This document shows positions 19,373 to 43,324 of a stretch of DNA of 51,082 bases, one piece after another (the stretch's first letter is position 1; each line of letters opens with the position of its first letter). The DNA is from an uncultured Opitutia bacterium. GTDB taxonomy: Bacteria > Verrucomicrobiota > Verrucomicrobiia > Opitutales > Opitutaceae. A model generated the notes under the pieces. It had not been told where the DNA came from, did no database searches, and saw nothing but the letters and a program-made list of their open reading frames with translations. The stretch is taken from positions 1 through 51,082 of the forward strand of contig CAIJFT010000266.1 of NCBI GenBank assembly GCA_903820035.1. The letters are read 5' to 3'. The translations under genes and the position numbers were made by a program.

Positions 19373-19422
19373 CGTCGCGGGATAAACCCGTTCCCACCCC
19401 GCGCGCCGGGGCAAAAATGTGG

Positions 19423-19496
19423 CGCGGTGGAGGTGACTCGAACACCCGACCGGCGGTTTAGAAAACCGCTGCTCTATCCAGCTGAGCTACCACCGC
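19423..19496 (-). tRNA. tRNA-Arg (anticodon UCU)
   Basis: Read on minus: acceptor GCGGTGG pairing with CCACCGC, D arm GCTC/GAGC, anticodon stem GCGGT/ACCGC with loop TTTCTAA giving anticodon TCT, T arm with TTCGAGT. An encoded CCA follows (19420-19422). All four stems close, so it should be functional. Confidence 0.95.
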
Positions 19497-19601
19497 AAAC
19501 CACGCCTGCACGGGTATCTTGAGGGAAATTGAGCGACAAGGGAAAACCGCGCTTGACTCAACCTCCGTCGAACCTACGTTCCGCCTCCTTTCCCAATTTT
19601 A

Positions 19602-19678
19602 GGGGTGGTAGCTCAGTTGGTTAGAGCGTCTGCCTGTCACGCAGAAGGTCGCGGGTTCGAGTCCCGTCCATCCCGCCA
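19602..19678 (+). tRNA. tRNA-Asp (anticodon GUC)
   Basis: Acceptor GGGGTGG with CCATCCC (one G-U pair), D arm GCTC/GAGC, anticodon stem TCTGC/GCAGA with loop CTGTCAC giving GTC, T arm GCGGG/CCCGT with TTCGAGT, then G and encoded CCA (19676-19678). The integrase remnant just downstream suggests its 3' end was an attachment site; the gene itself remains intact. Confidence 0.96.
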
Positions 19679-20569: not shown

Positions 20570-22126
20570 ATGCCGGTAAACCCCCAACGGGACCTGGCGG
20601 AGGCCCTGCGCCGCGCGCAGGTCGCCGCCCCCTCGCACATCCTCCGTTCCGGGCAACTGCCGCGGCGGGCGCGCACCCTCCTGCAGCAGCGCGGGTTCCT
20701 CGTCGAAATCATTAAGGGGTGGTATGCCCTGACGACTCCGCAGGCCAGCCCGGGCGACACCACTTTCTGGCATCTCCATTTCTGGAGCTTCGTGTCCGCC
20801 TACCTGCAGGCCCGCTACGGTCAGCGTTACTGCCTTTCGCCTGAGCATTCCCTCGACCTCTGGACGGCCGGGACGCAAACCCCGAAACAGCTGATCGTGC
20901 TCACCGCCCGCGGCGGCGTGTTCACCCTGAAGCTGCCGAACGAAAGTTCGATACTACTCTATCCCAACCGCAAGGGCCTCCCGCCCTCGACCGAATCAAA
21001 GCAGGGCGTGCAGGTCATGCCGCTGGCACTTGCTCTTATTCGCACGACCCCGAGCTATTTCACCCGGTCGGCGACCAATGCGGAGCTGGCGCTGCGGATG
21101 GTGAGGGTCGAGGAACTCTCGCGCGCCATGCTCGCTGGCGACGTAAATGTCTCCGCTGCCGGCCGCATCGTCGGTGGGCTGCGGCATCTCGGCCTCGCGG
21201 ACTCCGCCAACCGCTTGGAGGCGGACCTGCTGGCCGCCGGCATTGCCCTCAAGCCGCAGAATCCATTCGAAGAACCGCCCCGTCTCCCGGTCGGGGCAAC
21301 TTTGCAGTCTCCCTACGCCGGTCGCATCGAGGCGATGTGGTCGCGGTTGCGGCCCGACGTGCTGGCGCATTTCCCGGCGCCGCCCCGGGCCCAGCCCAAC
21401 CACGCCCGTTACCTGAAACGCGTGAATGAAATCTACACGCATGACGCCTACAATTCGCTCTCCATCGAGGGCTACCAAGTCACACCAGACCTGATTCAGC
21501 GCATCGCCGACGGGGCCTGGGATCCGATCGATAATCCCCAGGACCAGGCGCAGATCAATGCGATGGCCGCGAAGGGATACCGCGAAGCGTTCAACGGGGT
21601 GCTCTCCAGTCTGGGCGACATTTGGCGTGGCCGACCGCCGGGTGCGGTCGTCGATCGCGACCTGCAAGGCTGGTATCGCGCGCTCTTCAGCCCGTCGGTG
21701 CAGGCGAATATCCTGCCCGCGTCGGCACTTGCCGGTTATCGTGAACGGCGCGTTTTTATCCGCGGCTCGGAGCACGTACCGCCCGCGATTGAGGCCGTCC
21801 CCGCCTTGATGGAGGCGTTTTTCACTGCCCTTAACCGCGAACCTGCGCCTGCCGTCCGCGCGGTGCTCGGTCATTTTGTCTTTGTGTTCATTCACCCTTA
21901 TTCCGACGGCAACGGTCGCATCGGACGTTTCCTGATGAACCTCATGCTCGCCTCCAGCGGATACAATTGGGCTGTCATCCGGCTCGAGCGGCGGCGCGAA
22001 TACATGGCCGCCCTGGAAAAAGCCTCGGTTCAGGGCGAGATCGGTGACTTCGCCAAATTTGTGGCGGAGGAGATGAAGGCCTCGGCCAAGCTGAAGCCGT
22101 TCAGAGCTGCGCGGCGCACGCCCTGA
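20570..22126 (+). CDS. AbiEi-like antitoxin domain fused to Fic AMPylase domain
   Basis: 518-residue fusion. Residues 1-60 resemble the AbiEi-type winged helix (HILRSGQLPRRARTLLQQRG...IKGWYAL); the following part to about 230 continues the AbiEi-like region. The C-terminal half is a Fic domain with catalytic motif HPYSDGNGR (442-450); His442 is the catalytic base and the Asn/Arg bind the nucleotide phosphates. An inhibitory motif S-x3-E-G (SLSIEG, 296-301) precedes it, as in class II self-inhibited Fic enzymes. Fic proteins usually transfer AMP to target proteins. Three repeats sit just upstream and may be its operator. GGCGGA lies immediately before the ATG, too close for an ideal ribosome site. 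First intact gene of the island. Confidence 0.85.
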   Translation: MPVNPQRDLAEALRRAQVAAPSHILRSGQLPRRARTLLQQRGFLVEIIKGWYALTTPQASPGDTTFWHLHFWSFVSAYLQARYGQRYCLSPEHSLDLWTAGTQTPKQLIVLTARGGVFTLKLPNESSILLYPNRKGLPPSTESKQGVQVMPLALALIRTTPSYFTRSATNAELALRMVRVEELSRAMLAGDVNVSAAGRIVGGLRHLGLADSANRLEADLLAAGIALKPQNPFEEPPRLPVGATLQSPYAGRIEAMWSRLRPDVLAHFPAPPRAQPNHARYLKRVNEIYTHDAYNSLSIEGYQVTPDLIQRIADGAWDPIDNPQDQAQINAMAAKGYREAFNGVLSSLGDIWRGRPPGAVVDRDLQGWYRALFSPSVQANILPASALAGYRERRVFIRGSEHVPPAIEAVPALMEAFFTALNREPAPAVRAVLGHFVFVFIHPYSDGNGRIGRFLMNLMLASSGYNWAVIRLERRREYMAALEKASVQGEIGDFAKFVAEEMKASAKLKPFRAARRTP

Positions 22127-25874: not shown

Positions 25875-26714
25875 TCAAGGTGGCCCTACGACTTCAAGTG
25901 CAATGCGTGAGCCCGTCACTTCGTCAGGTGGCGCCTCAAGGCGGGCAAAGCGTCCACGCTTCTCAATTGAAAAGGTTGAGACAACTCGCATCGCTTGCAC
26001 GTCGACGACGTAGTCAAAATCGAGGTCGAGCACACGAATATCCCAATCCCCGACGAGCAGCTCGCCTGCCTTCATTTCAAATCTGATCGCGTGTGTTCCC
26101 ACATGGCGTCCCACGCCGTGCGAAAATGCGCCACTGGCAGCCATGTGTTGATTCGCTAACGTGTGTGCGACGTCTGTGAATGAGGTCGGGTTACCCGCGA
26201 AGACGCATGGTGCCGCCACAAAGTTCGGCTGTGGCGTTTCGGGTGAACCAGCAGCGCGATACGCGTTAGTTTGAAACCGGGTGAAATGGTGCGAGAATTT
26301 ACTCGCTCCGATCGATCCGAATGCCGACCAAACATCGTCCGTGAATGTGACGAGTTCGAGGTGTTGCGTTTGCTTTGCTTCAACCACCGCTTCGGCGGTG
26401 AATTTCCTGCCGATGATCGTTCCGCGTGCCGCTCCCAATGCCGTCATTTTCCTTGCGAAGATCGTAACGACGTTTCGGTCGACGGGTTCCTTCCAGTTTT
26501 TGCACTCGAAGAAATGCTGCGTCTCGTAAGGCGAGTTTTCGTTAATGCGCACCAGCAAATCGATCTCGAAGGCCTGCTCACCCTTTTTGAGGCGGGCTCG
26601 GGGTTGCATTGAGAATGGTGCCTGAGCAATGCCTGGCTGAGCGCGAATGACCATTTCCTCTATGGCTCGTGTTGCGCGCTCCAGTGCGTCACCCTTTTCG
26701 GCCGCATCATTCAT
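25875..26714 (-). CDS. PD-(D/E)xK restriction endonuclease-like protein
   Basis: 279 residues from ATG 26714 (a GTG at 26729 is also possible). An N-terminal Mrr-like nuclease fold shows FEIDLLVRI (E50, D52), then HFFECKNWKEPVD with E70-C-K72 and a nearby helix, a complete D...E-x-K active site. Such domains usually cut DNA, often modified or phage DNA. The part after about 130 is unrelated and has a hydrophobic-rich patch and several beta-like segments; it may bind the target. No methyltransferase is adjacent, so it is either modification-dependent or a defence nuclease under other control. It is transcribed divergently from the zinc-ribbon/PIN-like gene. Confidence 0.7.
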   Translation of the reverse strand: MNDAAEKGDALERATRAIEEMVIRAQPGIAQAPFSMQPRARLKKGEQAFEIDLLVRINENSPYETQHFFECKNWKEPVDRNVVTIFARKMTALGAARGTIIGRKFTAEAVVEAKQTQHLELVTFTDDVWSAFGSIGASKFSHHFTRFQTNAYRAAGSPETPQPNFVAAPCVFAGNPTSFTDVAHTLANQHMAASGAFSHGVGRHVGTHAIRFEMKAGELLVGDWDIRVLDLDFDYVVDVQAMRVVSTFSIEKRGRFARLEAPPDEVTGSRIALEVVGPP

Positions 26715-26860
26715 GGCTCGAATCAGCACATTGCCACACGTTCTGCACTGTTATTTTGGGGAGCGCAGTGCTGCGCCGAGCGGGAGCGGCAACTGCCATC
26801 GTCGGCGAGCAATTCCCTCTGGCCAGCCTCGGCCGCCGTGGCATTCTGAGTTCGATCTCC

Positions 26861-29018: not shown

Positions 29019-32000
29019 TCAGTCGCGTTCCTTCATCGCATGGCGTTCAAACGAGTCATTCAATCGGAGGACACCCAGCATTCGCTGCACCTCTGCCCAA
29101 GCATCCTTAGTCACGATCCAGCGGTTCAAAATCGGCTGACGTTGTCGGCCATTCCCATGAACCCAGCGAAGCGGCCCGTGCATTCGCTCGTATCGGACGA
29201 CGATCTGCCCGGATTTTTTCCATACCAACGGGTCAAGCGGGTCGGGCTCCCACTTGAGTTCATTCTTCCACAAACGCGCAGGATACAGATCGAGCATCGC
29301 GTGGCCGAGCCTGAGCATAGCACCAGTTCGGAACACCAGCGGGCGCTTGCCGCGTTCAATCTCTGGCTCCCACCACCGTCCCATCAGCCAGGGAAATACG
29401 CGCGCGCTGACCGTTGTTGGCAGACTTGAGCGCCGGTTGAGTTCGTCTGCACGACCCTCTTCCCACCAAAGCCAAAAATCCAAGTCCTCATGAGAGGATG
29501 GCAGCTCGAAATGAGCGGCCAGCACGCATTCGGTGTTCCGGACGGCATGAGTTAGCGCCATGTCGAACATTCGGTTTCGAATGGCTGCCGCATCGGGCGC
29601 GGTCTCCTTGTTATATCCGAGCAACTTTTCGTCGGGCCATGCTGTAAGGGTCGGGTCTGACATAGGGCTCCTGCATAGAATCCAAGGATCATCGCCACTC
29701 AGGTAGCCCTGCGCGAAACGCCCGGCCATCGTTTGCGGCAACGGATTCTCGGCCATGAAACCTTCGAGTGCCTTTGCCAAGGCTTCGTCAGCTTCGACGC
29801 TGCCGCAATACATGTCCCCATCACGGCACAAGTAGGGCGGGCCAAGCCGATCAGTCTTGGTTTCGGGAGAATTCTGCTGGAAGACCTCCGCAACTCTCGT
29901 GACAACGTCGTCCAATTCTGCGCCCGTGGTTGCTTCGATCCGCTTGATCATGCCTGCCACGGCTAACTCACGATCGACTAGCCGCATTCCTCCGAAGCGA
30001 CGGTCCGTAGTTTGGAAAAGCTCGCGAGCGGGGCGCAGCAATTCCGACTCGATGTTCGGAGTAGCCGCTGGGCCTTTTTGCGGAAACACCGGCGGCGTGG
30101 CGTATACTGCTAGAACTACCCAAGCTTGAGTCCGAATTTTCAGGTTTTCGTGACTGAGGCAGGCCGTAACAGAGGCGTGAACGCGACTGAACTCGGCAGG
30201 ATACCTGCGAGCCCAAACTTCGGCGGCGAGTAGCAGCCACTTGAGGACCCAATCGTCCGCCGGCATGGGCGTGAAGAATCGTGCTATTATCCGCGGTGCG
30301 TGCGCGACCAGCACCTGAATGCCATGCAGCGCGCCGCTGATTACCTCCGCGCTGCGGGAATTAAGCAGGAACATCAGTTCTTCCGCTGCGAGTTCATTCC
30401 AAGTGACTGGTGGTCGTGGTGCGGGCAGCGTTACGGCCTTGAATGGCAGCACCAGTTCTCCGCCGCGGAGCCACCGCTCATGCATGTCCAAGATTCGAGT
30501 TAGCCCGCTTTTCAATTCATTCGGCCCGCACGCGTCCGCGCGGGCCAGCGCGACGAAGAGCATGTTTTGGGCGATGGCTTCGCTCCACCGTGACCCCGTG
30601 CCGGCAAATTTTATTGCCGATTCGGCGAGAGCCCAAAGCTCGGATTCGGCACAGGTGGCCCCGAGATGGAGGAGCGACGACCTCGTCTTCCAATCATACC
30701 AAGACCACGCGCTCCCGAAGTCTGATCCGGTGCCGATGGTGCGCAACACGGTAGCAATCGACTCGCCGGTGTTGTTTTTCCGGATGTCGTCCATAAGCAA
30801 CGTCGCTTCCTTGGGTTTCAGCTCGCGGCCACTCGCAAACTTTTGCCTGATTTCGCTCAAGTCGAGCGGCTCATCGGACCTGCCATTCGATTTGTCTCGA
30901 TCTGGATCCGGCACGACTCGAATTGCCTCTGCCGGCGTCAGCTCGTGGAGAGCTTTCTCCAATTCGGTTCGCGTTGGACCCGCCGTCGCGAGCAACACCT
31001 CGCGGAGCTTTTCGAGGTCAGATGCGTCATTGCGTGTGAACCATTCGCTGTATCCGACAAGCAGGCACCAAGCGGACAGACGGTCCGTCATCGAAATTTC
31101 TCGATTGCGCAGCCATGCTTTCATTCCCGAAAAGAGGCGGTTTCGAGTGGAATAAAACCAGCTAGTGTCTCGCTCGTTCGGCTGCGTAGCGTGAATCAGA
31201 CGGTAAACGTCGTCGGGACCGCAGGAAAAGGCACACGCTCCGAGCGTCACGTCGATCTCGGGCGACGCGCGATTGTCGCAACCGGCGGCCGATGCAGCAT
31301 CGCTCAAACTCCAGAGGCGGACGCCGATTTCGCGCCACTCTTCCGGAGCTCTCATCGCGAGCTGGTCAAACCAGTCGCTGGCCATGCCGAAGCTATAATC
31401 TTTGTGGCCGCGGTAAGTGATCTGCATCCAATTCAGTCTTGCCGCGGCGGCTCGCAGCAACGCGGTCTCGCCCAACTTTTCGGCGAGCGGCTCAAGCGTT
31501 TCGTATATGCTCTGGGCCTCGTCGTTGGGCTCGGCCCAAACGTGTCCGTTTTTTCCGATCCAAGTTTCTAACCACATGCGCTGGTGCGTGACGTTACCTT
31601 CGCGGCGATGCAGGTCCCATAAAGAGGAGAGGCGTTGGTCGACGACAAACTTGCCAGATGCTTCGGCGGTTGCGGATAGTAGGGCGGCACGGTGCTCCCC
31701 TCCCAGCGGATAGACCGTAGCAACGCAGAGGGAACACAGATCGCCGGCCGTCGGGCGGTGCATGAAGTGCACGTCACTCCAGAGGTTAGGATGCCATAGC
31801 GCTCCGAGTATCCGTTGCAGCTGACCGGCAGGCACCAAGTCTCGCGCCGCGTCTAATCCTTTCCTGTGGCATAATCCCTCAATACGCCCGACGCATGTAG
31901 CGGCTGCAATCAAGGTGCGGGTATGGCGTCCCGATCGGTCAAGCGAGGTGATCGCGAAACGTCCCGCAACCTTCTCGACCAATGTGCCAATCTCAGAGAC

Positions 32001-34910
32001 GGAGTCTCTCCAGCCGAGTGCTCGGGCCAAGCTCAGTGCCGGCTGCATTCCCGAATCAACGTTTGCTGGTATCAAATCTGTTTGATCGAGCACCTTGGTC
32101 CATGGGTCGGCCCCCAATCCGAGGCGCATCGCCCACAACGCCGCGAGTATCCGGAAATCTAAGCTCAACTTCCCGTAGGTCCCGGCTATTTCGGTCAGCA
32201 GAGTCTTTAGCGCACGGTCCGCGGCGGCTTCCACCAGTTGTCGGCCGGCCTGTTCCCAGCTACCGATGTAGTAAAGATCCAGCCCGCGCAGGAACGTATC
32301 AAAGTCGTCGGCTGGGGAATTTATCGTGCAAGTGCCAATCCAGCCTCTTTCATAGCCAAGGGCGAAGTGGTGAGCTGCGTCATTATCAGGAGTGCCCGAA
32401 GGCAAAAGGACGCCGACTCGACCGCAGACTTGGCCGAGATGTCCTCCGCGCGAGTCGATTTGCGCGGCCCAATCCGATTGGTTCTCGCTAATTATCGCTT
32501 TTGCGATTTCCGCCACATTCAATCCGTCGAACCAGCGTTTAATCATCCCGGCTGCCCGGTCACGTTCGCCGGCAGACAGCAGCTGCGAGGCGTCGTTGAG
32601 GACGTTGATCAGTGCATTCTCTGTCCACTGCTCCCGCGGAAGCACACGCACTTCGGAGAGCAGAAAAAGAGGCGCGGTGGGCTGCGGACGGACCGGTGCC
32701 GTCCGGCCGGACTCGATTTTGTCTTCCCAGCGGCCAAGACATTCCAAAGCGCACGCGACCTCCTGTAGCTTACTCCAATCCTGTCGGCGGACTGCCTGCA
32801 CGGCGGCGGCCTCCGCGCTTTCCGCAACGGTGGTGAAATTTGCCCCTACCGCCGCGGCCTCGAAAACGAAATCGACGCTGAAGATATCGGCCCACTCAAT
32901 CTCGCGGTCGCCGTCGCGCAGTAGTCGGTGGAGAACGGCATGGGCCACGACCCGGTTGCTCGAACTCTTTCGGTAGTGGTCGGCCATACCCGACGCGACC
33001 AAACGGCGCTCTGCTGGTGCTTTCGCCGCCAGAAGCCCATGCATAAACGTGCGCACGTCATTGTGCATCACCCTGTAGCCCCCGCCTTCGGCAATGATCA
33101 ACGGCCCTAAGCGCGCGAGCACTAGCTCCCATTGATCGGCAGTCCGACCTAAACCAGGAAAGCAAGATGCGAGAAAGGTGCCTGTGATTCGCTCTTGGGC
33201 AAGGCATAGCGCGCCCGCCAGCATCGACTCCAACTGTGAGCCGTCCGGCGCTGCATTCGCCAACGCGTGTCGCCAGATATTCCGGTAATAGTCGTCGAGC
33301 TGGGCGCCGATCTTCTGGTCGGACAGACGCACGGCCAGTTCATCCACAGTGGCGCACTGCTGAGCTTCCGCCACCGCGAACACGACCGAAAGAGTATTTC
33401 CCTTAGTAGTGTCGACGATGAGGCGAGCGGCGGGCGCGGCTTGCGCTGGCATAAACGGCGGCCGATTTCGTTCCAGCAGAAGCAGCACGTCGGCTTCCTC
33501 CAGCCGACCGATGGTCAAAGGGGTCACCTCACTTGAATCTTGTGCCAGCCACGACGGATACTCCGAGTAGTTCTCGCTCGGTTGCCCGGCCACCAGTAAT
33601 CGCACAGCCATGTTCCTCAATGCGTCGGGACTAGGTAAGGACTGGAAAAATTCTCGAGCGGCGGGCTGGTTATAACGAGAGGCGCGAGCGGCATGGTCGA
33701 TCCCGTCGATCGCGATTACGAAGGGTCGACTGAGTTCCCGCCCCAGTCGGTCAGCGAGCCGCAACACGTGGCCGCGCGCCTGCTCCCAATTCAAGAGCGA
33801 ATTCCGCACCGGCACTTGATACGCTGCGAGCTTTCCGCGAAGGCCGCGACGCAATTGGGTGAGTAGGTCATTCCACAGCCGGTCAGCGCGCACCCGCTGG
33901 TCCGCGTCCGGAGGTATCAAAGGTGTCTCCGGCGAGATTGGCCTAAAGGCATAATAGCGCAGACCGATCACGCCGCCGAAGGCGGCGGCGGAGCGACGGT
34001 TGTCGAGTTCGCTGATAAGACTGGTTTTGCCTGCCCCGGGGGGCGCCGACAGGAAGATTACGGGCGTCCCGGGGGCGGCTAAGATGCTTTCGAGAGCGGC
34101 GAGATCCTTCAGTCGGCTGGGAAAGAAAGGTGTGGGTGGCGGGGGAGAATGGCGCTCGCTCTCGGAGTCGTCATCCAGCGCCAAAACACTGAGCAGGTCC
34201 TCGAGTGTCACCGTTTCGTGAGTCGTAGTCCAGCGGCGCAGCGCTTGGTCTAGCGCGGGCAGCAAGGTCTCCGCTTTCGATTCCGAAACCTGAAACAACG
34301 TCGCGAGTCGCGTGCGCAGCTGGTCGACTGATGGCCCCAAGTCCGCTTGATTGGCGCGAATATCGAACGCCTGAAGGAATGCGTGCTGCGGGTCCGCGGG
34401 GAGCGTCGCCAGCGTGGCTAACCATTCCTGCCAGGCTTCGCGCCACTTGTCGGGCGGTTGGATTTGCGCGCAAGTTCGGTTGGCAACCAGTTCGGATTTC
34501 AGCCACTCGTGGAACTCGATCAGGGGCGGACGCGAAATGCCTGTCTGGGTGGTGCTGTTACGTTCACCCGCCGTCCGGTTGGTGTAGAGGATACAGGTGG
34601 ACCCTGTGGGCGCGTCGATTTCGTGCCAAGCCTTGGCCAGTTCTCCGAGCAGGGTCTTCCCTTCCTCGTCCTTCCCAACCAGATCGCCGAACGTGAGCGA
34701 ATCTTCGACTCGCGAGTGCTTCACTTGGAACATCTGCACGGTGCCGTTCTTGAAGCGCACCACGACGTCGTCCCATCCCTTGATTCCTGTCAGCTGCAGC
34801 GACACCGATGCTACCGGCGAATCCGGATCAAGCATCTCGACAATCTGCAAAAGGCCCACGGTCCATTCATACCAATAGGGATCGCCTTTGCCGGCCGTGG
34901 CTGCGCGCAT
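29019..34910 (-). CDS. Avs-like STAND NTPase with N-terminal Cap4/DUF4297-type nuclease domain
   Basis: 1963 residues from ATG 34910 (a TTG 23 codons upstream is possible). Residues about 15-170 resemble the Cap4/DUF4297 dsDNA endonuclease fold: TGIKGWDDVVVRFKNG (D47-D48) and MFQVKHSR (Q62-V-K64), a PD-(D/E)xK core. A STAND-type P-loop NTPase follows with Walker A APPGAGKTS (about 289-297) and Walker B FVIAIDGIDHAA (about 397-407). The remaining 1300 or so residues are mostly helical with Trp-rich repeats, as in TPR-like sensor arms. This order and size match Avs (antiviral ATPases/NTPases of the STAND superfamily), which recognise phage proteins through the C-terminal arm and trigger the nuclease. 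Which phage protein is sensed cannot be told. It is a lone gene. Confidence 0.75.
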   Translation of the reverse strand: MRAATAGKGDPYWYEWTVGLLQIVEMLDPDSPVASVSLQLTGIKGWDDVVVRFKNGTVQMFQVKHSRVEDSLTFGDLVGKDEEGKTLLGELAKAWHEIDAPTGSTCILYTNRTAGERNSTTQTGISRPPLIEFHEWLKSELVANRTCAQIQPPDKWREAWQEWLATLATLPADPQHAFLQAFDIRANQADLGPSVDQLRTRLATLFQVSESKAETLLPALDQALRRWTTTHETVTLEDLLSVLALDDDSESERHSPPPPTPFFPSRLKDLAALESILAAPGTPVIFLSAPPGAGKTSLISELDNRRSAAAFGGVIGLRYYAFRPISPETPLIPPDADQRVRADRLWNDLLTQLRRGLRGKLAAYQVPVRNSLLNWEQARGHVLRLADRLGRELSRPFVIAIDGIDHAARASRYNQPAAREFFQSLPSPDALRNMAVRLLVAGQPSENYSEYPSWLAQDSSEVTPLTIGRLEEADVLLLLERNRPPFMPAQAAPAARLIVDTTKGNTLSVVFAVAEAQQCATVDELAVRLSDQKIGAQLDDYYRNIWRHALANAAPDGSQLESMLAGALCLAQERITGTFLASCFPGLGRTADQWELVLARLGPLIIAEGGGYRVMHNDVRTFMHGLLAAKAPAERRLVASGMADHYRKSSSNRVVAHAVLHRLLRDGDREIEWADIFSVDFVFEAAAVGANFTTVAESAEAAAVQAVRRQDWSKLQEVACALECLGRWEDKIESGRTAPVRPQPTAPLFLLSEVRVLPREQWTENALINVLNDASQLLSAGERDRAAGMIKRWFDGLNVAEIAKAIISENQSDWAAQIDSRGGHLGQVCGRVGVLLPSGTPDNDAAHHFALGYERGWIGTCTINSPADDFDTFLRGLDLYYIGSWEQAGRQLVEAAADRALKTLLTEIAGTYGKLSLDFRILAALWAMRLGLGADPWTKVLDQTDLIPANVDSGMQPALSLARALGWRDSVSEIGTLVEKVAGRFAITSLDRSGRHTRTLIAAATCVGRIEGLCHRKGLDAARDLVPAGQLQRILGALWHPNLWSDVHFMHRPTAGDLCSLCVATVYPLGGEHRAALLSATAEASGKFVVDQRLSSLWDLHRREGNVTHQRMWLETWIGKNGHVWAEPNDEAQSIYETLEPLAEKLGETALLRAAAARLNWMQITYRGHKDYSFGMASDWFDQLAMRAPEEWREIGVRLWSLSDAASAAGCDNRASPEIDVTLGACAFSCGPDDVYRLIHATQPNERDTSWFYSTRNRLFSGMKAWLRNREISMTDRLSAWCLLVGYSEWFTRNDASDLEKLREVLLATAGPTRTELEKALHELTPAEAIRVVPDPDRDKSNGRSDEPLDLSEIRQKFASGRELKPKEATLLMDDIRKNNTGESIATVLRTIGTGSDFGSAWSWYDWKTRSSLLHLGATCAESELWALAESAIKFAGTGSRWSEAIAQNMLFVALARADACGPNELKSGLTRILDMHERWLRGGELVLPFKAVTLPAPRPPVTWNELAAEELMFLLNSRSAEVISGALHGIQVLVAHAPRIIARFFTPMPADDWVLKWLLLAAEVWARRYPAEFSRVHASVTACLSHENLKIRTQAWVVLAVYATPPVFPQKGPAATPNIESELLRPARELFQTTDRRFGGMRLVDRELAVAGMIKRIEATTGAELDDVVTRVAEVFQQNSPETKTDRLGPPYLCRDGDMYCGSVEADEALAKALEGFMAENPLPQTMAGRFAQGYLSGDDPWILCRSPMSDPTLTAWPDEKLLGYNKETAPDAAAIRNRMFDMALTHAVRNTECVLAAHFELPSSHEDLDFWLWWEEGRADELNRRSSLPTTVSARVFPWLMGRWWEPEIERGKRPLVFRTGAMLRLGHAMLDLYPARLWKNELKWEPDPLDPLVWKKSGQIVVRYERMHGPLRWVHGNGRQRQPILNRWIVTKDAWAEVQRMLGVLRLNDSFERHAMKERD

Positions 34911-35424: not shown

Positions 35425-36072
35425 TTAGGCCTTCTTCACGCGAACCCAGTCGCCTGGTGATCGCTCAACTCGCCAGAACCAGCGGCCGTTGGTAGAGCTT
35501 CCGGTTGCCTTGGAAGCAGCGGCGGAAAGCGACGAGTAGATTTTGCCTTTGTAGCGGACGGTGCCGTCGCGTTGCCATCGGGCGCGGACGATTTTTCCAT
35601 TGTAACGCCCACGAATTGAGCGCGTGCGCTGTTTGGGTGAGTCGTCCTTAGCTTCTTCATTGATGGGCCGGCCAAACAAGGTGTCGCGCTCACGCTTGTG
35701 TTTGGCCTTCAGGATTCGCTCCAAAGTGCGTTCCAAATTGTCGGCGCCCGCGAATCGGCCCTTCTGCTTGTTGCCAGCCGCAAGAGTGATCCTGATGGCG
35801 AGCGACTCCAGCTCGCGGAGGTGTTGGTCGCCGATCGTGATGTAGACACTGAAGCGATCCCACGAATTTTGATGACGATCCTTCAGGTGATGTTTGAGTC
35901 GCCAACGAAGGTCCTTCGCCAGCCCGACGTAATAAAGTTCGTCTCCGTCGTAGAGCGCATAGATGCCGTTCCGACCGCGAACGATCTCACGGATAATTTC
36001 GGGGTGCTCCGCGAATGCATCTCGGTGGATTCTCTCCAAATATTGCGAAACTAGCTTAGGACGGCGTGGCAT
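35425..36072 (-). CDS. GIY-YIG nuclease with C-terminal RAMA-like domain
   Basis: 215 residues. The N-terminal half is a GIY-YIG endonuclease: NGIYALYD (GIY 36-38), YYVGLAKDLRWRL (YVG 48-50, R56), His61-62 in KHHLKD and ELES (E88-E89) as metal-site candidates. The C-terminal part from about 150 (NGKIVRARW, then YKGKIYSSLSAAASKATGSS and NGRWFWRVE) resembles the RAMA module, which is found in restriction systems and is thought to read modified DNA bases. So this may be a nuclease guided by DNA modification. It starts 9 nt after hsdR on the same strand and is the last gene of the seven-gene operon. RAMA assignment is by pattern. Confidence 0.7.
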   Translation of the reverse strand: MPRRPKLVSQYLERIHRDAFAEHPEIIREIVRGRNGIYALYDGDELYYVGLAKDLRWRLKHHLKDRHQNSWDRFSVYITIGDQHLRELESLAIRITLAAGNKQKGRFAGADNLERTLERILKAKHKRERDTLFGRPINEEAKDDSPKQRTRSIRGRYNGKIVRARWQRDGTVRYKGKIYSSLSAAASKATGSSTNGRWFWRVERSPGDWVRVKKA

Positions 36073-36081
36073 GGCTGAGGT

Positions 36082-39000
36082 TCAGTTCTCGTAAGTCATC
36101 CCAAACACCGTGTCCGTGAGCCACCCGCGGAAGGATTCGTTATCCTGGAATTGTTTGAAGAGCTGGGCGTCGTCTTTGAAGAGCGCGGTGATGACTCGCT
36201 TCAGCGCCTTGTCGTGTTCGATCTTCGCGTTCTGGCGGTCGGAGTTCTTTTTCGCGTTTTGATACTTTTTGTCGGCCGCCACCTTCTGGGGAATCTCGCC
36301 AGTGATGCGCTCCTCCATTCGTTTTGCATCCGCAAAGAGCCCGCCGAACTGGTCGTTGAATTGCTTCACGATGTTCGAGAGCTTGTCCAATTCTGGCTCC
36401 GCCTTGCGTCCGCCGCCTGATGTCGGCACCGGCTCGATCTCGGCATCCGCATCGGGCAAAGCGATGGCCATGGTTGCCTTCTTCTCCGCGCGGTAGCTGT
36501 CCATGTCGATGGCTTCGAGGATTCCTTTGGCGAGGTCTTCCTCGATGGGCGCAGGCAGCTTCGAAATGAGGAAGTTCAGGAAGATCGAGAGCTTCTCCCA
36601 GTCTTGCACGCCATACGGCAGGATCGTGGCAAGGAAGTCGTAAGTGCGGGTAAACGCCTTGGCCTTGCCCTTGAAATCCACCTGTCCGTCTTCATCGAGG
36701 TCGTTCACATAGACGGTCACGCAGGCGTCGAGAATGGGGTCGAGTTTGTCCCGGTCGGCTCCGCCCAGATACAACTCCACCAGCGCGTTGATCTGGTCGG
36801 GCGAATACACCTGATACTTGTCCAGCTCTCCCTTGAGCGTGTGGAGCTTGTTCGGGTCGGTCTCCTTGCTGAGGATCGTCGTGCGGTAGTAGTCGGCGAA
36901 GGATTCCTCGATGGTCTTGGTGTCGTTTTGGAAATCGAGGACGAAGACGTCGTGCTTCTTCGGGTGCGCCCGGTTCAGGCGGGAGAGCGTTTGCACGGCT
37001 TTGATACCGCTCAGCGCCTTGTCCACATACATGGTGTGCAGCAGCGGTTCATCGTAGCCGGTCTGAAACTTCTCGGCGCAGATGAGGAAGCGATACGGGT
37101 CTTCCTGAATCCGGTCAGCAATCTCGCCGCTCGGAAAGCCGTTGAGCTTCGATTCACTGACCTTGTCGCCTTTGTATTCCGGCTCGCCGGAGAAGGCGAC
37201 GATGGCCTTGTAGGGACTATTGATCTCTTTGAGATAAGCGGTGAACGCGAAAAAATATTCGATCGCTCGTTGGATGCTACCAGTCACGACCATCGCCCGC
37301 GCTTGACCGCCGATTTTATTCTGTCCGATCACCTGTTCGAGGAACTGATCTGCCATAATCTCCGCCTTCTCGCGAATGGCTTTGCTGTGGCTCTCGACGT
37401 AGCGGCGCAGTTTCTTCCGGGCCTTCTTCACGTCATACTCGGGGTCGCCTTCCACGGTCTTTGCGAGCCGGTAGTAGCTGGCCACGGGCGTGTAGTTTTT
37501 GAGCACGTCGAGGATGAAACCTTCCTGGATCGCCTGCTTCATCGTGTAGCCATGGAAGGGCCGGTGCTTCACCTCGCCGCCTTCCGAATACTTTACGCCG
37601 AACATCTCCAAGGTTTTGTTCTTTGGCGTCGCGGTGAAGGCAAAGTAACTGGCGTTCTTCGCGAGCTTTTTCTTTTTGATGCGCTCGTCGAGGGCGTCGT
37701 TGATCTCGTCCTCGGTGTCCGCCACGACCTGACTGACGGCGGAGGAGGTTTTGCCGCTCTGGCTGGAGTGCGCCTCGTCGATGATAATGGCAAACTTCCC
37801 GCCACGATGTTCATCGCCGATGCTGTCGAGCACATGGGGAAAGGTCTGCACCGTGGAGATGATGAGCTTCTTGCCGTCCTTGAGATACTTCGTGAGCTGC
37901 TCCGTTTTGGAAGTGCCCGCGCCTTCCTTCACCGCGCCGATCACGCTGCCCACCTGGGCAAAACCCTTGATCGTCTCGCGGATTTGTTTGTCGAGGAGGC
38001 GGCGGTCGGTGATGACGATAACGGAATCAAAGACCGGCTTTCCGTCATTCGACAGGCTGATCAACTGGTGGGCCAGCCACGCGATAGAGTTCGACTTCCC
38101 GCTGCCCGCGCTGTGCTGGATGAGGTAGCGCTTACCCGCCCCGTGCTCCTGCACGTCGGCCAGAATCTTCCGCACCACTTCGAGTTGATGGTAGCGGGGG
38201 AAAATCTGCACCTGCTTCTTTTTGCCCGTCTTCAGTTTCTCCTCCTCCACGACTTGCGCGTAGTTCTCCAGAATCTCCGCCAATCGCGCCGGGGTGAGGA
38301 TGCGCCTCCATAGGTAATCCGTCTTGAGGCCATCCGGGTTCGGGGGATTGCCCGCGCCATCGTTCCAGCCCTGATTGAACGGCAGAAACCACGAATCCTT
38401 CGCCGTGCCGCCCTTGCCTTTGAGGGCAGTGCACATCGCCACTTCATGGTCATCCACCGCGAAGTGGACGACGCAGCGGCCAAACTGAAAGAGCGTCTCC
38501 CGGGGGTCGCGGTCGCGTTTGTATTGTTCGATAGCGTCTTCGACCGTCTGCTTGGTCAGGCTGTTTTTCAGTTCAAAGGTGATCACCGGCAGCCCGTTGA
38601 TAAAGGCGCACAAATCCAGCGAGCGCTTATTCTCCCGGCTGAAGTGCAATTGCCGCGTGATACTGAACCGGTTTTTGGCATGGCGCTCTACCGCCTTCGC
38701 GTTCTCCGCCGAGGGCTTGCCGTAGAACAGGTCAAAGCTCAGCGCCCCGTGCTTGATGCCATGGCGCAGCACATCAATCACCCCGCGCCGCGTGATCTCT
38801 CCTTGCAGCCGGGCGAGAAACTTCTGCCGCGCCATCCCTTGCTTATCTTTGTAATCCCCGATGCCCAGCTTTGCCCATTCCTCCGGCTGCGTGGCGATGA
38901 GAAAGGCAAAGAGCTGCTCCGAATCCACGGCAAACTCGCGGTCATACGCAGCATCATTTCCCACGAACCAGCCGCTGCCGCCTTTGGCGGGTGCAGCTTC

Positions 39001-39099
39001 GGCCACGACGCCCGACACGCCGGAGGCCAAGCCATCCGACCCGGTCATGTGGCGCATGATCAGGCTTTCGAGTCCTTTTTCACTGGTGTCGGTTTTCAT
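36082..39099 (-). CDS. hsdR: Type I restriction enzyme R subunit
   Basis: The motor and nuclease subunit of a type I restriction-modification complex: it translocates and cuts unmethylated DNA with HsdM/HsdS. 1005 residues from ATG 39099. Order: N-terminal RecB-like nuclease with D162, E176 and K178 (PVITFELKNS), two RecA-like helicase domains with Walker A HSAGSGKS (329-336) and DEAH (441-444), then the helical C-terminal part that contacts the methylase. All catalytic motifs are intact. Unusually it is separated from hsdM-hsdS by three inserted genes (RT, nitrilase, putative nuclease), 17 nt after the last of them. Confidence 0.95.
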   Translation of the reverse strand: MKTDTSEKGLESLIMRHMTGSDGLASGVSGVVAEAAPAKGGSGWFVGNDAAYDREFAVDSEQLFAFLIATQPEEWAKLGIGDYKDKQGMARQKFLARLQGEITRRGVIDVLRHGIKHGALSFDLFYGKPSAENAKAVERHAKNRFSITRQLHFSRENKRSLDLCAFINGLPVITFELKNSLTKQTVEDAIEQYKRDRDPRETLFQFGRCVVHFAVDDHEVAMCTALKGKGGTAKDSWFLPFNQGWNDGAGNPPNPDGLKTDYLWRRILTPARLAEILENYAQVVEEEKLKTGKKKQVQIFPRYHQLEVVRKILADVQEHGAGKRYLIQHSAGSGKSNSIAWLAHQLISLSNDGKPVFDSVIVITDRRLLDKQIRETIKGFAQVGSVIGAVKEGAGTSKTEQLTKYLKDGKKLIISTVQTFPHVLDSIGDEHRGGKFAIIIDEAHSSQSGKTSSAVSQVVADTEDEINDALDERIKKKKLAKNASYFAFTATPKNKTLEMFGVKYSEGGEVKHRPFHGYTMKQAIQEGFILDVLKNYTPVASYYRLAKTVEGDPEYDVKKARKKLRRYVESHSKAIREKAEIMADQFLEQVIGQNKIGGQARAMVVTGSIQRAIEYFFAFTAYLKEINSPYKAIVAFSGEPEYKGDKVSESKLNGFPSGEIADRIQEDPYRFLICAEKFQTGYDEPLLHTMYVDKALSGIKAVQTLSRLNRAHPKKHDVFVLDFQNDTKTIEESFADYYRTTILSKETDPNKLHTLKGELDKYQVYSPDQINALVELYLGGADRDKLDPILDACVTVYVNDLDEDGQVDFKGKAKAFTRTYDFLATILPYGVQDWEKLSIFLNFLISKLPAPIEEDLAKGILEAIDMDSYRAEKKATMAIALPDADAEIEPVPTSGGGRKAEPELDKLSNIVKQFNDQFGGLFADAKRMEERITGEIPQKVAADKKYQNAKKNSDRQNAKIEHDKALKRVITALFKDDAQLFKQFQDNESFRGWLTDTVFGMTYEN

Positions 39100-39116
39100 G
39101 TTTGGACGCAACCCGG

Positions 39117-40385
39117 TTAGCTCCGTTCTTCCTCGTCATCGCCTTCGTAGAATGAACTGGTGTCGACCGAGATACTCTCCCGGTCGATCTCGATCTTTGA
39201 CGGGTCGCCAATCGGCGCTCTGCCTGAGAATTTGAAAGGGAAGGACGCCGAGCTTTCAGCTCCGTCGCCTCGGCTTACATCGCCGTCGGAGCCCCATTGG
39301 AGATCGCAATCAACAGAACCGGTTCCGCTGAACTCGATCCATTCTTCGTCGAATGTAAGCTCACCGACTTCGACATCCGAGGCTCCTTGCGGTCGGGTGT
39401 GAGACGAGAGGCAATCTAGCTCATCGAAGAAGTCGCCCGTAAAGATGTCGTCGAGGTGCGATTGGATATCAACCGCGATGTCCTGTTCTATGAGAAGCTT
39501 TGCGGTCTCGATTGCAGACACCAACAGAATGAACCGTTGCATGACCGCGGCGAAAAGAGGTGCTGCTTCCGTGTAGCTTTTTTCCAGCACATCTTCGGTG
39601 ACGTGAGTTAATGCGGATAGTTTTCCGATGTCCTTCAATAACGCAGACGCTATTTCGTCGGCTTGCTCCGAGAACGTCTTGGGGAACTTCTCCTGCGTGA
39701 GGTTTTTGAAGATCGCGTAGTCAATTCGATGCCGTCGGGTCACGCCACCGCTGGCGTCCTTGGCCGGAACAAACCATGGAGCTTTTTTGACTTCCGTATC
39801 AGGCGCCACTTCCCCCAAGAACTCACGAAGCAGCTCTCGGAGCGCGGTGCCCGCGTTAACGAATCGCAGAGAGTTCCCGGCATCACGATAGGATGCTAAC
39901 GCTCCACGCAGTATGGTTTCTAGATGCTCAGAATAGGGTCCCAACCGGGAACACAGTCGCTCCTCAAGACTTTGAAGCTCCTCGTTGTGCGTGGAGAGCA
40001 TTTGCTTCAAGGAATCGAGCCCCGCCTGCGTTTCGGGCGCACTAGCAGCTATGAGCGCCGATACGCCCGATTGAATCGTCGATTGGATTTGATCGCTATA
40101 GAAGCTTCTCCCAGAACCCGGCGGCGACACCCTGAACTGCTCACACATCGGAATTGCCATGCTACCTGTTGGGAAAATTGTTGATTGCGCTGCGCTCCGG
40201 TAAAGCGAGCCGCTGCTGTAGCCAAATATCTTTAGGCTTTCGTCCACTAGACCCTTTGAATAAAGCAAAGCGTCAAGTTGTTCCTTCGAGCGTTTCGCCT
40301 CGAGTTCAGCGCTATTCACGCCTGCTGCGAGGTGGCTGCTGAGGGATTTCAGCATTTCAAGAGTTGGGTCGGGATTCGAATCCAT
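39117..40385 (-). CDS. Uncharacterised protein, possible pPIWI-associating-nuclease-like
   Basis: 422 residues, no signal peptide or TM segment. Residues 1-170 are helical with coiled-coil-like stretches (LDSLKQMLSTHNEELQSLEERL, split by a Pro-rich loop). The middle holds AGTALRELLREFLGEVAPD (about 178-195), then TRRHRIDYAIFKN (216-228), a pattern resembling the predicted pPIWI-associating nuclease family (LRELL..LAPD...RRxRxxYA). The C-terminus (about 320-422) is acidic and beta-like (EVGELTFDEEWIEF, SVDCDLQW). It lies 3 nt after the nitrilase and 17 nt before hsdR, so it is almost certainly co-expressed with the RT. Family match is tentative. Alternatives are a scaffold or regulator of the RT. 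Confidence 0.5.
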   Translation of the reverse strand: MDSNPDPTLEMLKSLSSHLAAGVNSAELEAKRSKEQLDALLYSKGLVDESLKIFGYSSGSLYRSAAQSTIFPTGSMAIPMCEQFRVSPPGSGRSFYSDQIQSTIQSGVSALIAASAPETQAGLDSLKQMLSTHNEELQSLEERLCSRLGPYSEHLETILRGALASYRDAGNSLRFVNAGTALRELLREFLGEVAPDTEVKKAPWFVPAKDASGGVTRRHRIDYAIFKNLTQEKFPKTFSEQADEIASALLKDIGKLSALTHVTEDVLEKSYTEAAPLFAAVMQRFILLVSAIETAKLLIEQDIAVDIQSHLDDIFTGDFFDELDCLSSHTRPQGASDVEVGELTFDEEWIEFSGTGSVDCDLQWGSDGDVSRGDGAESSASFPFKFSGRAPIGDPSKIEIDRESISVDTSSFYEGDDEEERS

Positions 40386-40388
40386 GGC

Positions 40389-41357
40389 TTATTCGTTTGG
40401 AGTGGTTGGTGGCGTATTCAGCGTTCTTTGCCCAAGGCGAATCCTCTTTTCGATCTCAGCAGGGTCAAAATCTGGTGGCGTCGGTTTATATTCCTTCGAG
40501 TCTTTCTGAAGACCATATCGCTTGAGTTGGTGACTACGCAGTTGCTGGAGCGGAAGCCGCATCGTGAGAAACGTCTGATTATCGCCACCCTTGATACGGA
40601 GGGGATTCAGCTTCTCAGTTTTTGAAGGGCTGACCACACGTGAGTCTCCGAACTGAGCGCTGTTTACCTGAATCACGTAGCAGTGGAGATCGCGTGCAGC
40701 AGATTCAACGATGTTGGAGAAGTAATTCACGTCCTTGTTGAATTCCGAGCAGACGATGAAATCCACCATGCCTTTGAAGAGGCACCGATCCTCCAGGCTT
40801 GCCAACTCGTAGCAGTTGTAGACCGCAAAACTTGCTCCCCGCCATTGAAAGAGCTGGTAGCGGCTCTTCGCTCTGAATTTCGGAACCGAGAGACGATTGT
40901 TCGTCAGTTGAAATTCCTCCTCGGGAGAATAGTGCTTCTTTAGACGCCGAATGGGGGCGCATTCTTGGGACCCTCTCGCCCCTCGAAAGGGCAGTGCCGC
41001 CAGCAGTTCGTTCCAAGCGCGACGTCGGTCGTCAATCCGGTGTTCGAGCCCGCAAATCACTCCTACTTGGTGGTCTTTTGCCCACCGCGTGATGAACGTG
41101 GCCCACCTGTGCGGCACTGACACTTCTGGGAGGACCAGCAAGTCCACGCGTTGCGCTGGGTGGCGAACGCCGTGCTTCACGACATCGTTTAGAAGTTCTG
41201 AAAGCACCTTTTTCCGCTGCCGCGAGACATTCGGCGAGCCCATGAAACTGTCTTCGATATTCTTTTCATCCACCGTTAGGTGCCCGACACCGACTCGCAA
41301 GCCGCCATGTAAATCCGGAGTGCGAGCACCAATCGAAATCCTGAGGAATGGGTTCAT
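40389..41357 (-). CDS. Nitrilase-superfamily (C-N hydrolase-like) protein partner of RT
   Basis: 322 residues of the nitrilase fold. The Glu-Lys-Cys triad is visible: E78 in VDLLVLPEVS, K140/K141 in RRLKKHYSPEEE and C182 in FAVYNCYELAS, with SEFNKDV and DLHCYVIQVNS in the usual following strands. The active site therefore looks intact. Defence-associated RTs of the DRT1 type carry a nitrilase domain fused to the RT; here it is a separate gene whose ATG overlaps the RT stop (ATGA, 41354-41357). Neither the substrate nor the role of nitrilase domains in DRT defence is established. It is followed after 3 nt by the uncharacterised gene. Confidence 0.75.
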   Translation of the reverse strand: MNPFLRISIGARTPDLHGGLRVGVGHLTVDEKNIEDSFMGSPNVSRQRKKVLSELLNDVVKHGVRHPAQRVDLLVLPEVSVPHRWATFITRWAKDHQVGVICGLEHRIDDRRRAWNELLAALPFRGARGSQECAPIRRLKKHYSPEEEFQLTNNRLSVPKFRAKSRYQLFQWRGASFAVYNCYELASLEDRCLFKGMVDFIVCSEFNKDVNYFSNIVESAARDLHCYVIQVNSAQFGDSRVVSPSKTEKLNPLRIKGGDNQTFLTMRLPLQQLRSHQLKRYGLQKDSKEYKPTPPDFDPAEIEKRIRLGQRTLNTPPTTPNE

Positions 41358-43324
41358 TGCGAATCTTTCTCGCCGATGAGTTCGCTCGTTACATCTTCAA
41401 GTTCCGAGCCATGAAACTGTTTGTAGACCTCGTTGGCCCTTTCTACCGAATCCTTCTTGTTTATCCGGGCAAAGCCGGAATCCACAAATCCAAGGCACTC
41501 GTCAAAATGAACGAAGCGCGGAGTGTTAAGCGCCTTCTGGTGATCGATCACTAGGCCCGAGGCGCTCGATGGCGATGCCAGGTTTCCTTCGTAACTAGTG
41601 TAGTTCAGCAGCGGTATGGCTACCAAGTGGTGCCTGATGAGATTTGATTTCCTCCACAGTCGAGTTGCCGAATCGCCACCATGGCCTGTGGATTTAGTCA
41701 CCGCCAAGCTGAGCTCCATGCAAAGATCAAGGTGGGCTGCCAAAGTCTGCCGGAGGCGGATAGAGACTTCGGATCGACTACCCGACGGCGCCTCATTCGC
41801 CGACGAGTATTTTACCTTCACGCTCTCGCCGCGCATCGCTTTGCTGAAGCGCTCAGCGCCCTTCTGGTCTCCCGCGATCACAAGGAAGCTGATGACGCGT
41901 TCCCACATGTCCCAGTAGTCAATTGCGTTGCGGCCCTTAAAAAACCGAAACAGCTCGTCCTTCAAATCCCTATCGCCGGAGCCTTCCGTCATCAAATGTA
42001 GCTGGGTTTGTTTCGCGAGGTGGCCCGCCAATTCCCAACGGTTTTCCGCGATCGCCTTCACGCTGCGGAATTTGTTTACCGAGTCGTCATACAACAGATC
42101 GTAGGCAACCTGAGCCACCGGACTATCATCGCCATCTACCGGCAGGAGGGCAAAATCGCTGGCGTTCTCTTCGAGTTGCTTTTGAAACTTCTCGAGACCG
42201 GCGGTTGAGTGTTCCGCATCGAAGAACTGCAAAGTGCATTTCCTTTTCTGCAAGAAAAGGCCGGGTCTAGACCGAAGTTCGAATCGTTCATGATTCTCAT
42301 CCCATTTGAGAACCCCTGCGTTTACGAGAACCCGATCCATGAAGCTCATGATGGGGTCCGACTCTTCCGGCGGCTTGGGCATCGTTACGACCATGAATAT
42401 GTCGTCAACATAGCGCCCGTAGTAAGCGGGCCTGACGTTCTCAAGGATAACGTCGTCGAATTCCTTGAGATACCAGTTCGCGATCACAGGAGACGCACAA
42501 AGACCAATCGGCAGACATGTTGCCGCGTGCGGCAAATCGGGATGCGTCACGGCTAGTAATGGAGCTAGCTTCTCGCGGTAGCGCTTGCAGACCTCCTCAA
42601 TGCACTTGAAAAGCTTTTCCCCCAGTAGCTGGCGCTGCATGAAGAAAGCTTGGAGAGGTCCTTTCGAGATAGGGCGCTTGATTTGCGTCCGGAGCGTTTC
42701 CCAGTCGAGCTGGATGCGGTAGTAATACTCCTGCACGTCAAGGCCGACCACACAGACACTCTGCCGGTCTTCGGAGAGAAGGTCCCGGGCTTTTTGAATA
42801 CCGGAGTCACGCCACTTCGAATACAGTTCGTGATATTTTTCGAAGAGGTAGGCAGAGTGGTCTTCGTCGTTTCCGACGAACTGGTGCAGGCGGGAGCCTG
42901 AGCAGTGACTGGACAACGTGTGATCATACTCCGGCCCTTCAATCATCAGCCACAGAACGGACAGCAGGTGTAACTCGACCGGACCGTCGAACATGTAGTT
43001 TACCTTCTCCACTCGATGCACAGGCGCACTCGTGACATTCGACACAAACGAGCCCTGGCCTTCCTTCGGCTTCGCGGGTCCCACCACGCTCTTCGGAATC
43101 ACATCGAAGCCGATTTCCTCGATCCACTTTTCGAACTGAGTGGTTTCGTGAGGCGCTTTGGATTCAGCAACCTTTGTGACCGCCTGAAGTCGCTCCTCGA
43201 AATCGGCTTCGCACTCAAACTCGGCCATGCGCCGTCGCAGGGTGAGCGGATGCTTTTCGAAGTGAACCATCTGCTTCAGCTTCTTGTAGGCAACTTTGAC
43301 GCGGTCGTGGAGGTCGAGAATCAT
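41354..43324 (-). CDS. Defence-associated reverse transcriptase (UG/DRT class)
   Basis: 656-residue RT not belonging to a group II intron, retron or DGR by context. Palm motifs are clear: first catalytic Asp in VVGLDVQEYYYRI (D196), LPIGLCASPVIANWYLKEFD (about 271-290), and YGRYVDDIFMV with YVDD (305-308). A helical N-terminal part (1-190) and a 300-residue helical C-terminal part flank the palm, as in UG-class (unknown group) RTs that protect against phage. The adjacent nitrilase points to the DRT1/UG5-like branch. Its ATG overlaps the hsdS stop and its TGA overlaps the nitrilase ATG, so it is embedded in the type I restriction operon. No gap before it could hold a template ncRNA. Confidence 0.85.
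   Translation of the reverse strand: MILDLHDRVKVAYKKLKQMVHFEKHPLTLRRRMAEFECEADFEERLQAVTKVAESKAPHETTQFEKWIEEIGFDVIPKSVVGPAKPKEGQGSFVSNVTSAPVHRVEKVNYMFDGPVELHLLSVLWLMIEGPEYDHTLSSHCSGSRLHQFVGNDEDHSAYLFEKYHELYSKWRDSGIQKARDLLSEDRQSVCVVGLDVQEYYYRIQLDWETLRTQIKRPISKGPLQAFFMQRQLLGEKLFKCIEEVCKRYREKLAPLLAVTHPDLPHAATCLPIGLCASPVIANWYLKEFDDVILENVRPAYYGRYVDDIFMVVTMPKPPEESDPIMSFMDRVLVNAGVLKWDENHERFELRSRPGLFLQKRKCTLQFFDAEHSTAGLEKFQKQLEENASDFALLPVDGDDSPVAQVAYDLLYDDSVNKFRSVKAIAENRWELAGHLAKQTQLHLMTEGSGDRDLKDELFRFFKGRNAIDYWDMWERVISFLVIAGDQKGAERFSKAMRGESVKVKYSSANEAPSGSRSEVSIRLRQTLAAHLDLCMELSLAVTKSTGHGGDSATRLWRKSNLIRHHLVAIPLLNYTSYEGNLASPSSASGLVIDHQKALNTPRFVHFDECLGFVDSGFARINKKDSVERANEVYKQFHGSELEDVTSELIGEKDSQ

Follow-up and report, generated by a model that had tools for sequence, protein, structure and literature searches.

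On balance, the gene at positions 29019–34910 on the minus strand of the window (the whole 51,082-nucleotide stretch of DNA analyzed here) would encode a divergent, stand-alone, single-protein Avs-type (NLR-like) anti-phage sensor-nuclease, with the terminase large subunit as its most likely ligand. The initial annotation had called the product an Avs-like STAND defense protein with a Cap4-type nuclease, and homology, fold, and conserved residues all sustain that description. The features of the gene are as follows.

29019–34910, minus strand: whole gene (P0002), encoding a Cap4 nuclease, a STAND NTPase, and a sensor arm, 1963 amino acids; an ATG frame with many homologues of about equal length.
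34176–34910, minus strand: Cap4/DUF4297-type PD-(D/E)xK nuclease, residues 1–245; PADLOC SAVED_PDDEXK and LmuA matches and a VIA match to Cap4 (7yib).
34719–34868, minus strand: presumed catalytic core, residues 15–64 (E15, D47/D48, Q62-x-K64); unchanged in all 31 aligned proteins, with the role presumed from the Cap4 fold.
33291–34160, minus strand: STAND/AAA NTPase, residues 251–540, with Walker A at G292-K295-T296 and Walker B at about 399–406 (IAIDGIDH); AAA_16/AAA_22 matches, the Apaf-1, NRC, and Avs3 folds, and conservation.
32931–33290, minus strand: winged-helix region, residues 541–660, with an HND motif at 616–618 that we take to be MHD-like; conservation.
29571–32930, minus strand: helical sensor arm, residues 661–1780; structure models, Avs3 as the best fold match, and a profile link to capB and through capB to Avs1b.
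29022–29570, minus strand: C-terminal alpha/beta domain, residues 1781–1963; model strands at 1794–1958, within the range aligned to Avs3.

The coordinates and length given in the initial annotation hold, and the strand, which it had not stated, is the minus strand: there the frame runs without a stop for 1963 codons from its ATG, and an alternative TTG start could lengthen it to 34979 (1986 codons), while the plus strand across the same interval contains many stops and is not open. A profile scan of genome contigs from a four-sequence alignment located 34 related loci in several phyla, and the scan with the window protein alone as query found nothing. Alignment A2 (31 rows) comprises 29 of these loci, the window protein, and L003; left out of the 34 are a locus with a broken frame (L011), two that run off contig ends (L033, L035), and two fragments (L036, L038), and also omitted are L002 (on the same contig as L007), L004 (which has no nuclease part), and L005 (short). 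A further alignment, A3, holds 25 of the 31 rows. Among the other 30 proteins of A2, 24 are 1907–2046 amino acids long, five are 1529–1551, and one is 1766, and because these relatives are mostly of similar length the frame can be regarded as a real, conserved gene. It is the only copy in its own genome (6.05 Mb in 469 contigs, of which the window is one whole contig), and a search for close kin gave only the window protein itself among 95 genomes, and the window protein and one other match among 387 genomes of the phylum. A phage origin was considered and rejected, as there was no match in 50,697 phage records and none was confirmed in a pattern-based scan of viral contigs.

The Cap4/DUF4297-like nuclease that had been proposed for the N-terminus is borne out by homology, fold, and conserved presumed catalytic residues. 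The window protein matches the PADLOC models SAVED_PDDEXK (1.7e-6) and LmuA (1.9e-5), and Pfam Cap4_nuclease is found in 9 of the 25 family members scanned, the window protein itself having no match. Cap4 crystal structures align to the nuclease with Z 14.4–14.8 over 213–216 residues in VIA (7yib: Z 14.8, rmsd 3.6, 213 residues), and E15, D47, D48, Q62, and K64 are each invariant across all 31 aligned proteins. The acid, D, and (E/Q)xK residues of a PD-(D/E)xK core thus sit on a Cap4 fold, and these five positions (E15, D47/D48, Q62, K64) are presumed to form the catalytic core. Cap4 (PDB 7yib, 7yia), a CBASS effector nuclease, has this fold in common with the window protein and differs in its control, which by the PDB entry titles is exerted by a SAVED nucleotide sensor, whereas here it would be exerted by the STAND NTPase and arm.

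The P-loop STAND NTPase is likewise confirmed by an AAA_16 match (4.2e-7, at 31 bits against a cut-off of 32.6) and by the NB-ARC folds of Apaf-1 and NRC. Walker A residues G292, G294, and K295 and Walker B residues I399, D402, and D405 are present in 31 of 31 aligned proteins, and the motif at 616–618 is nearly as constant (H616 in 29, N617 in 31, and D618 in 30 of the 31). The protein therefore has two features expected of the Avs superfamily, a nuclease effector at the N-terminus and, in the middle, a STAND NTPase that carries both Walker motifs.

The third expectation, a long helical arm of the Avs fold, was addressed with two structure models, of residues 1–1080 and of the arm (residues 764–1963), which have mean pLDDT values of 84.0 and 83.9 and pTM values of 0.61 and 0.73. 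The best PDB match of the first model in Foldseek is terminase-bound Avs3 (E 1e-15), and Avs4 takes ranks 4 and 6; in VIA, MalT (Z 17.2) and Apaf-1 (Z 16.3) both stand above Avs3 (Z 15.3, rmsd 39.5, 691 residues). For the arm model, two Avs3 chains take Foldseek ranks 1 and 2 (E 8.7e-12 and 3.4e-11, TMq 0.44–0.45), the next row is CAND1 (E 4.5e-4, TMq 0.13), and no Avs4 chain appears among the best 50 rows. Avs3 is also first in VIA, with 872 residues aligned over model range 54–1197 (residues 817–1960 of the protein) at rmsd 6.9 and about 10 per cent identity, and a Z of 11.1 that lies below the value of about 13 under which, according to the tool, helical-repeat matches may mean only a common arrangement. 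Ranks 2–7 align just 73–92 residues, and among the matches listed there is no Avs structure besides 8dgc. What makes the match of the arm to Avs3 persuasive is how much of the arm it spans and how far its E-value stands from that of the next row; a Z of 11.1 by itself would be insufficient, and it is together with a two-step profile link to Avs1b, described below, that it places the arm within the Avs fold.

The arm had been described beforehand as about 1300 residues long, helical, and built of Trp-rich repeats. Its size and mostly helical character stand, although the last approximately 180 residues hold most of the arm strands and form the C-terminal domain. Tryptophan is somewhat high, with 38 in the 1120 residues of 661–1780 and 12 in the 183 of 1781–1963 (together 3.8 per cent of the arm). 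Over the arms of the 31 aligned proteins, the window protein included, the mean is 2.55 per cent (range 1.52–4.17), and five Avs3a relatives have 1.95–2.93 per cent. The repeats are absent: the tryptophan spacings are irregular, and comparing the arm profile with itself revealed no repeated unit within it (best off-diagonal score 29, probability 0.8 per cent).

By direct sequence search the arm has no match to a known type. The window protein is hit by none of the Avs models, whether in PADLOC (E ≤ 0.1) or in NCBIfam (E ≤ 0.01). Among 25 family members scanned, the Avs1b model is found in 9 with PADLOC and in 8 with NCBIfam, and no other Avs model is found; in five hits examined the Avs1b model covers the NTPase, and only in L039, a distant member and the best of the five at 1.8e-39 (the other four range from 3.5e-10 to 3.9e-7), does it extend to the start of the arm. 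The Avs3a model NF041816 and the Avs2, Avs4, and Avs5 models (NF041813, NF041815, and NF041814) have no match at E ≤ 0.01 in the window protein and the 25 members, and no Avs4 protein scores above the model cut-off in 274 genomes from the class to which L013 belongs. Profile searches of PDB sequences do not reach Avs3 and return mostly P-loop ATPases and designed helical repeats; the arm profile returns only unrelated enzymes, and one further PDB sequence search gave a single chance match.

Links were found by profile-to-profile comparison. The capB set comprises six plasmid Cap4-like STAND proteins (L055, L057, L059, L078, L079, and L085, with L059 and L085 about 91 per cent identical), and the Avs1b set four genes, each flanked by annotated avs1a and avs1c, of which two carry the name Avs1b and two are called 'serine protease'; L039 was excluded from the family profile in the capB, Avs1b, and Avs3a comparisons. 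Family and capB profiles are collinear over nearly their full length including the arm (E 1.3e-49; nuclease alone E 3e-12). With the arms alone, the family scores 146.5 against capB (11 decoys ≤ 23.9) and capB scores 122.4 against Avs1b (11 decoys ≤ 21.9), while the family scores 23.2 directly against Avs1b, which is the decoy level (decoys ≤ 23.0). Since both steps via capB are far above the decoys and the direct score is not, homology to the Avs1b arm is transitive. The merged family and capB arm profile scores 40.5 against the Avs1b arm (decoys ≤ 26.7), and the family arm scores 39.1 against that of L039 (probability 13 per cent). Against the five Avs3a relatives, two of which are above the curated cut-off, residues 1–672 (nuclease and NTPase) are collinear at E 3.8e-16, and the arm is not alignable by sequence, at 28.8, a score that has no decoy reference. 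The arm thus aligns with described Avs types at the fold level (Avs3) and transitively (Avs1b), with a direct sequence match absent, and the argument of the initial annotation, that the arm could not be matched to a known type and its ligand may therefore be new, is not supported.

In a midpoint-rooted tree of 53 NTPase regions, the 30 family rows (L039 is not among them) form one clade with support of 94/84, just under the mark set by the tree tool. They adjoin a group (97/93) in which L039 falls with Avs1b, capB, and seven further plasmid STAND proteins. The family lies outside the Avs1b clade itself (100/98), Avs1b being the nearest named relative, and five Avs3a rows stand apart (100/100). 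The clade spans Verrucomicrobiota, Planctomycetota, Bacillota, Myxococcota, Pseudomonadota, Thermodesulfobacteriota, and Leptospira plasmids, and the eight-row clade around the window protein by itself mixes Verrucomicrobiota, Planctomycetota, Thermodesulfobacteriota, Myxococcota, and Pseudomonadota, a pattern that suggests horizontal spread. No model of its own for the clade was among the matches in the libraries searched (Pfam, PADLOC, NCBIfam), annotated plasmid records name its members just 'ATP-binding protein' or 'hypothetical protein', and a search of openly licensed literature by title and start of abstract gave no description of it among the matches listed.

Among plasmid relatives, the annotated frame of the Leptospira noguchii protein L004 (6037–11076) starts at the NTPase and is without a nuclease, and L003 has one. 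Three other plasmid Cap4-like STAND loci (L058, L060, and L062) encode a protein of 1450–1474 amino acids followed closely by a gene for 458–481 amino acids, and the pairs together cover 85–99 per cent of the one-piece L061 (tblastn).

Of the named types, Avs3 (AVAST type 3; PDB 8dgc, NF041816 Avs3a) is the closest in build. The two have in common a Cap4-type nuclease, a STAND NTPase, an arm of about 1300–1400 residues with a C-terminal domain, and similar length; Avs3 heads the Foldseek list for each of the two models and the VIA list for the arm model, and its nuclease and NTPase can be aligned by profile. They differ in that the arms cannot be aligned by sequence, the NTPases fall in different clades, and the curated Avs3a model does not match; the Cap4–STAND–arm architecture and fold of Avs3 are present. 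Avs1b (AVAST type 1; NF041810, PADLOC PDLC02159) has the nearest named NTPase and an arm linked through capB, but it carries a protease where the window protein has a Cap4-type nuclease. The capB set resembles the family collinearly over nearly the whole length, arm included, while its NTPases form a separate clade nearer Avs1b and its annotations also read only 'ATP-binding protein' or 'hypothetical protein'; its nuclease is deduced from the profile match, as PADLOC nuclease models miss the three proteins scanned (L055, L057, and L059).

The precedent of other Avs receptors suggests how such a protein would work. We infer a defense function, oligomerization, DNA cleavage, and terminase as the ligand. 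At rest the protein would be an inactive ATPase-nuclease; upon infection its long C-terminal arm would bind a conserved phage protein, most likely the terminase large subunit of the DNA-packaging motor, and binding would shift the STAND NTPase to an ATP-bound, oligomerizing state. With oligomerization the Cap4 domains at the N-termini would be gathered and activated as nucleases, and would then cut dsDNA and abort the infection. The terminase large subunit is favored because Avs3, the closest fold among solved structures, was determined in complex with terminase, as the title of entry 8dgc (Avs3 binds terminase) indicates, and because an Avs1 from Erwinia is activated by terminase (PMC12799240).

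Given that a fold likeness at about 10 per cent identity leaves the ligand unfixed, and that known ligands differ among Avs types, there is a smaller but appreciable chance that the same machine answers to another trigger, its arm recognizing the portal, some other protein of the capsid or of packaging, or a phage protein with no structural role. The low identity to Avs3 and the missing direct sequence match to any named type are consistent with this, as is the range of reported triggers: one account of Avs1–4 gives terminase large subunit, portal, or Ksap1, along with nuclease effector activity (PMC12931631). Arm length also varies among relatives. In a short-armed Bacillota sub-group (L023, L027, L028, L029, and L037) the arm ends near window-protein residue ∼1510, about 450 residues fewer, and in L025 the last approximately 200 arm residues are absent; the C-terminal domain is missing from all six, and no split-off C-terminus was found in the flanking DNA examined near the five Bacillota relatives. 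With five of 31 proteins and L025 truncated at the end of the arm, the sensor therefore varies. Against another trigger, terminase-bound Avs3 leads the other fold matches by some seven orders of magnitude in E-value, no Avs4 chain is among those best 50 arm rows, and the profiles link the arm to Avs1b, a type that in Erwinia responds to terminase (PMC12799240). A bolder proposal, which we consider rather unlikely, is that the family (the aligned proteins except L039, 30 of 31) may be an Avs type of its own, Cap4-armed, partner-free, and distributed over seven phyla, with a diverged arm whose target would be a conserved phage protein that is neither terminase nor portal nor any further trigger reported so far.

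A receptor made of a single protein agrees with the genomic setting. Tblastn (0.01) detected no counterpart of the Avs1a, Avs1c, or Avs1 protease proteins, either in the window or across the DNA examined of 37 related loci, the same search having returned 40 hits in four annotated Avs1 loci as a positive control, and no neighbor group recurs in more than 3 of 32 loci (427 open reading frames, up to 10 kb per side, several contigs being short). Because there is neither a common neighbor group nor an Avs1a or Avs1c homologue, the gene is most likely a stand-alone system as far as its sequence and surroundings indicate. A reading as an Avs1 system that exchanged its protease for a Cap4 nuclease but continues to depend on Avs1-type partners is accordingly very improbable: Avs1b is the nearest named NTPase group and PADLOC's Avs1b model is found in those 9 of 25 members, but the N-terminus is a Cap4-type nuclease (the N-termini of two Avs1b proteins find nothing), and the missing avs1a and avs1c genes and the lack of a recurrent neighbor both argue against it.

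The window carries other defense-related genes, and the region is perhaps an integrated defense island. At 36082–47051, minus strand, a reverse transcriptase (PADLOC RT_UG5_small), a nitrilase-like gene, and a pP_pnuc nuclease lie within a type I restriction–modification (R-M) operon (hsdM, hsdS ... hsdR). The nesting hsdM-hsdS-RT-nitrilase-hsdR recurs, with no pP_pnuc hit, in two of three other loci of the phylum that were read (L102, L103), and the third (L104) shows only the reverse transcriptase and nitrilase and stops at a contig edge. Between hsdR and the STAND gene, at 35425–36072, minus strand, is a small gene; its product matches GIY-YIG weakly, has a DUF2924/RAMA-like C-terminus, and is similar to the PADLOC candidate PDC-S14. 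Two Fic-domain proteins flank the island (20570–22126, plus strand, and 49469–50659, minus strand, the second SoFic-like), and near its edges are an Mrr-type nuclease (25875–26729, minus strand), a phage-type integrase (47568–48302, plus strand), and tRNA-Arg and tRNA-Asp genes (19420–19678).

The STAND gene comes after the minus-strand cluster hsdM-hsdS-RT(UG5)-nitrilase-pP_pnuc-hsdR and the GIY-YIG-like gene, and its position on the same strand, just downstream, might suggest a component of the R-M/RT-nitrilase island that does not act independently. A gap of 514 bases separates its ATG from the next upstream gene, however, its relatives share no common neighbor in the 32 loci, and the cluster occurs elsewhere with no STAND copy detected in the 11–19 kb read (in L102 only 2.8 kb beyond hsdR), so this reading has hardly any likelihood left. 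No better placed is an intact STAND nuclease with a non-phage role, such as plasmid control or programmed death under another stress, for although STAND proteins serve many roles and the defense function of the clade is argued by analogy, the surrounding defense genes, the patchy spread over phyla, and the Avs fold throughout speak against it.

The architecture and fold are thus of a kind already known, in a clade that is divergent and apparently unnamed. With an Avs3-like fold and effector and an NTPase nearer Avs1b, the window protein falls in the gap between these two types, within a broad clade of Avs-type receptors that Avs models mostly miss. If terminase is what these proteins sense, the clade would show how far the sequence of a sensor arm can diverge with its ligand kept; if the ligand is another, it would supply a new phage pattern.
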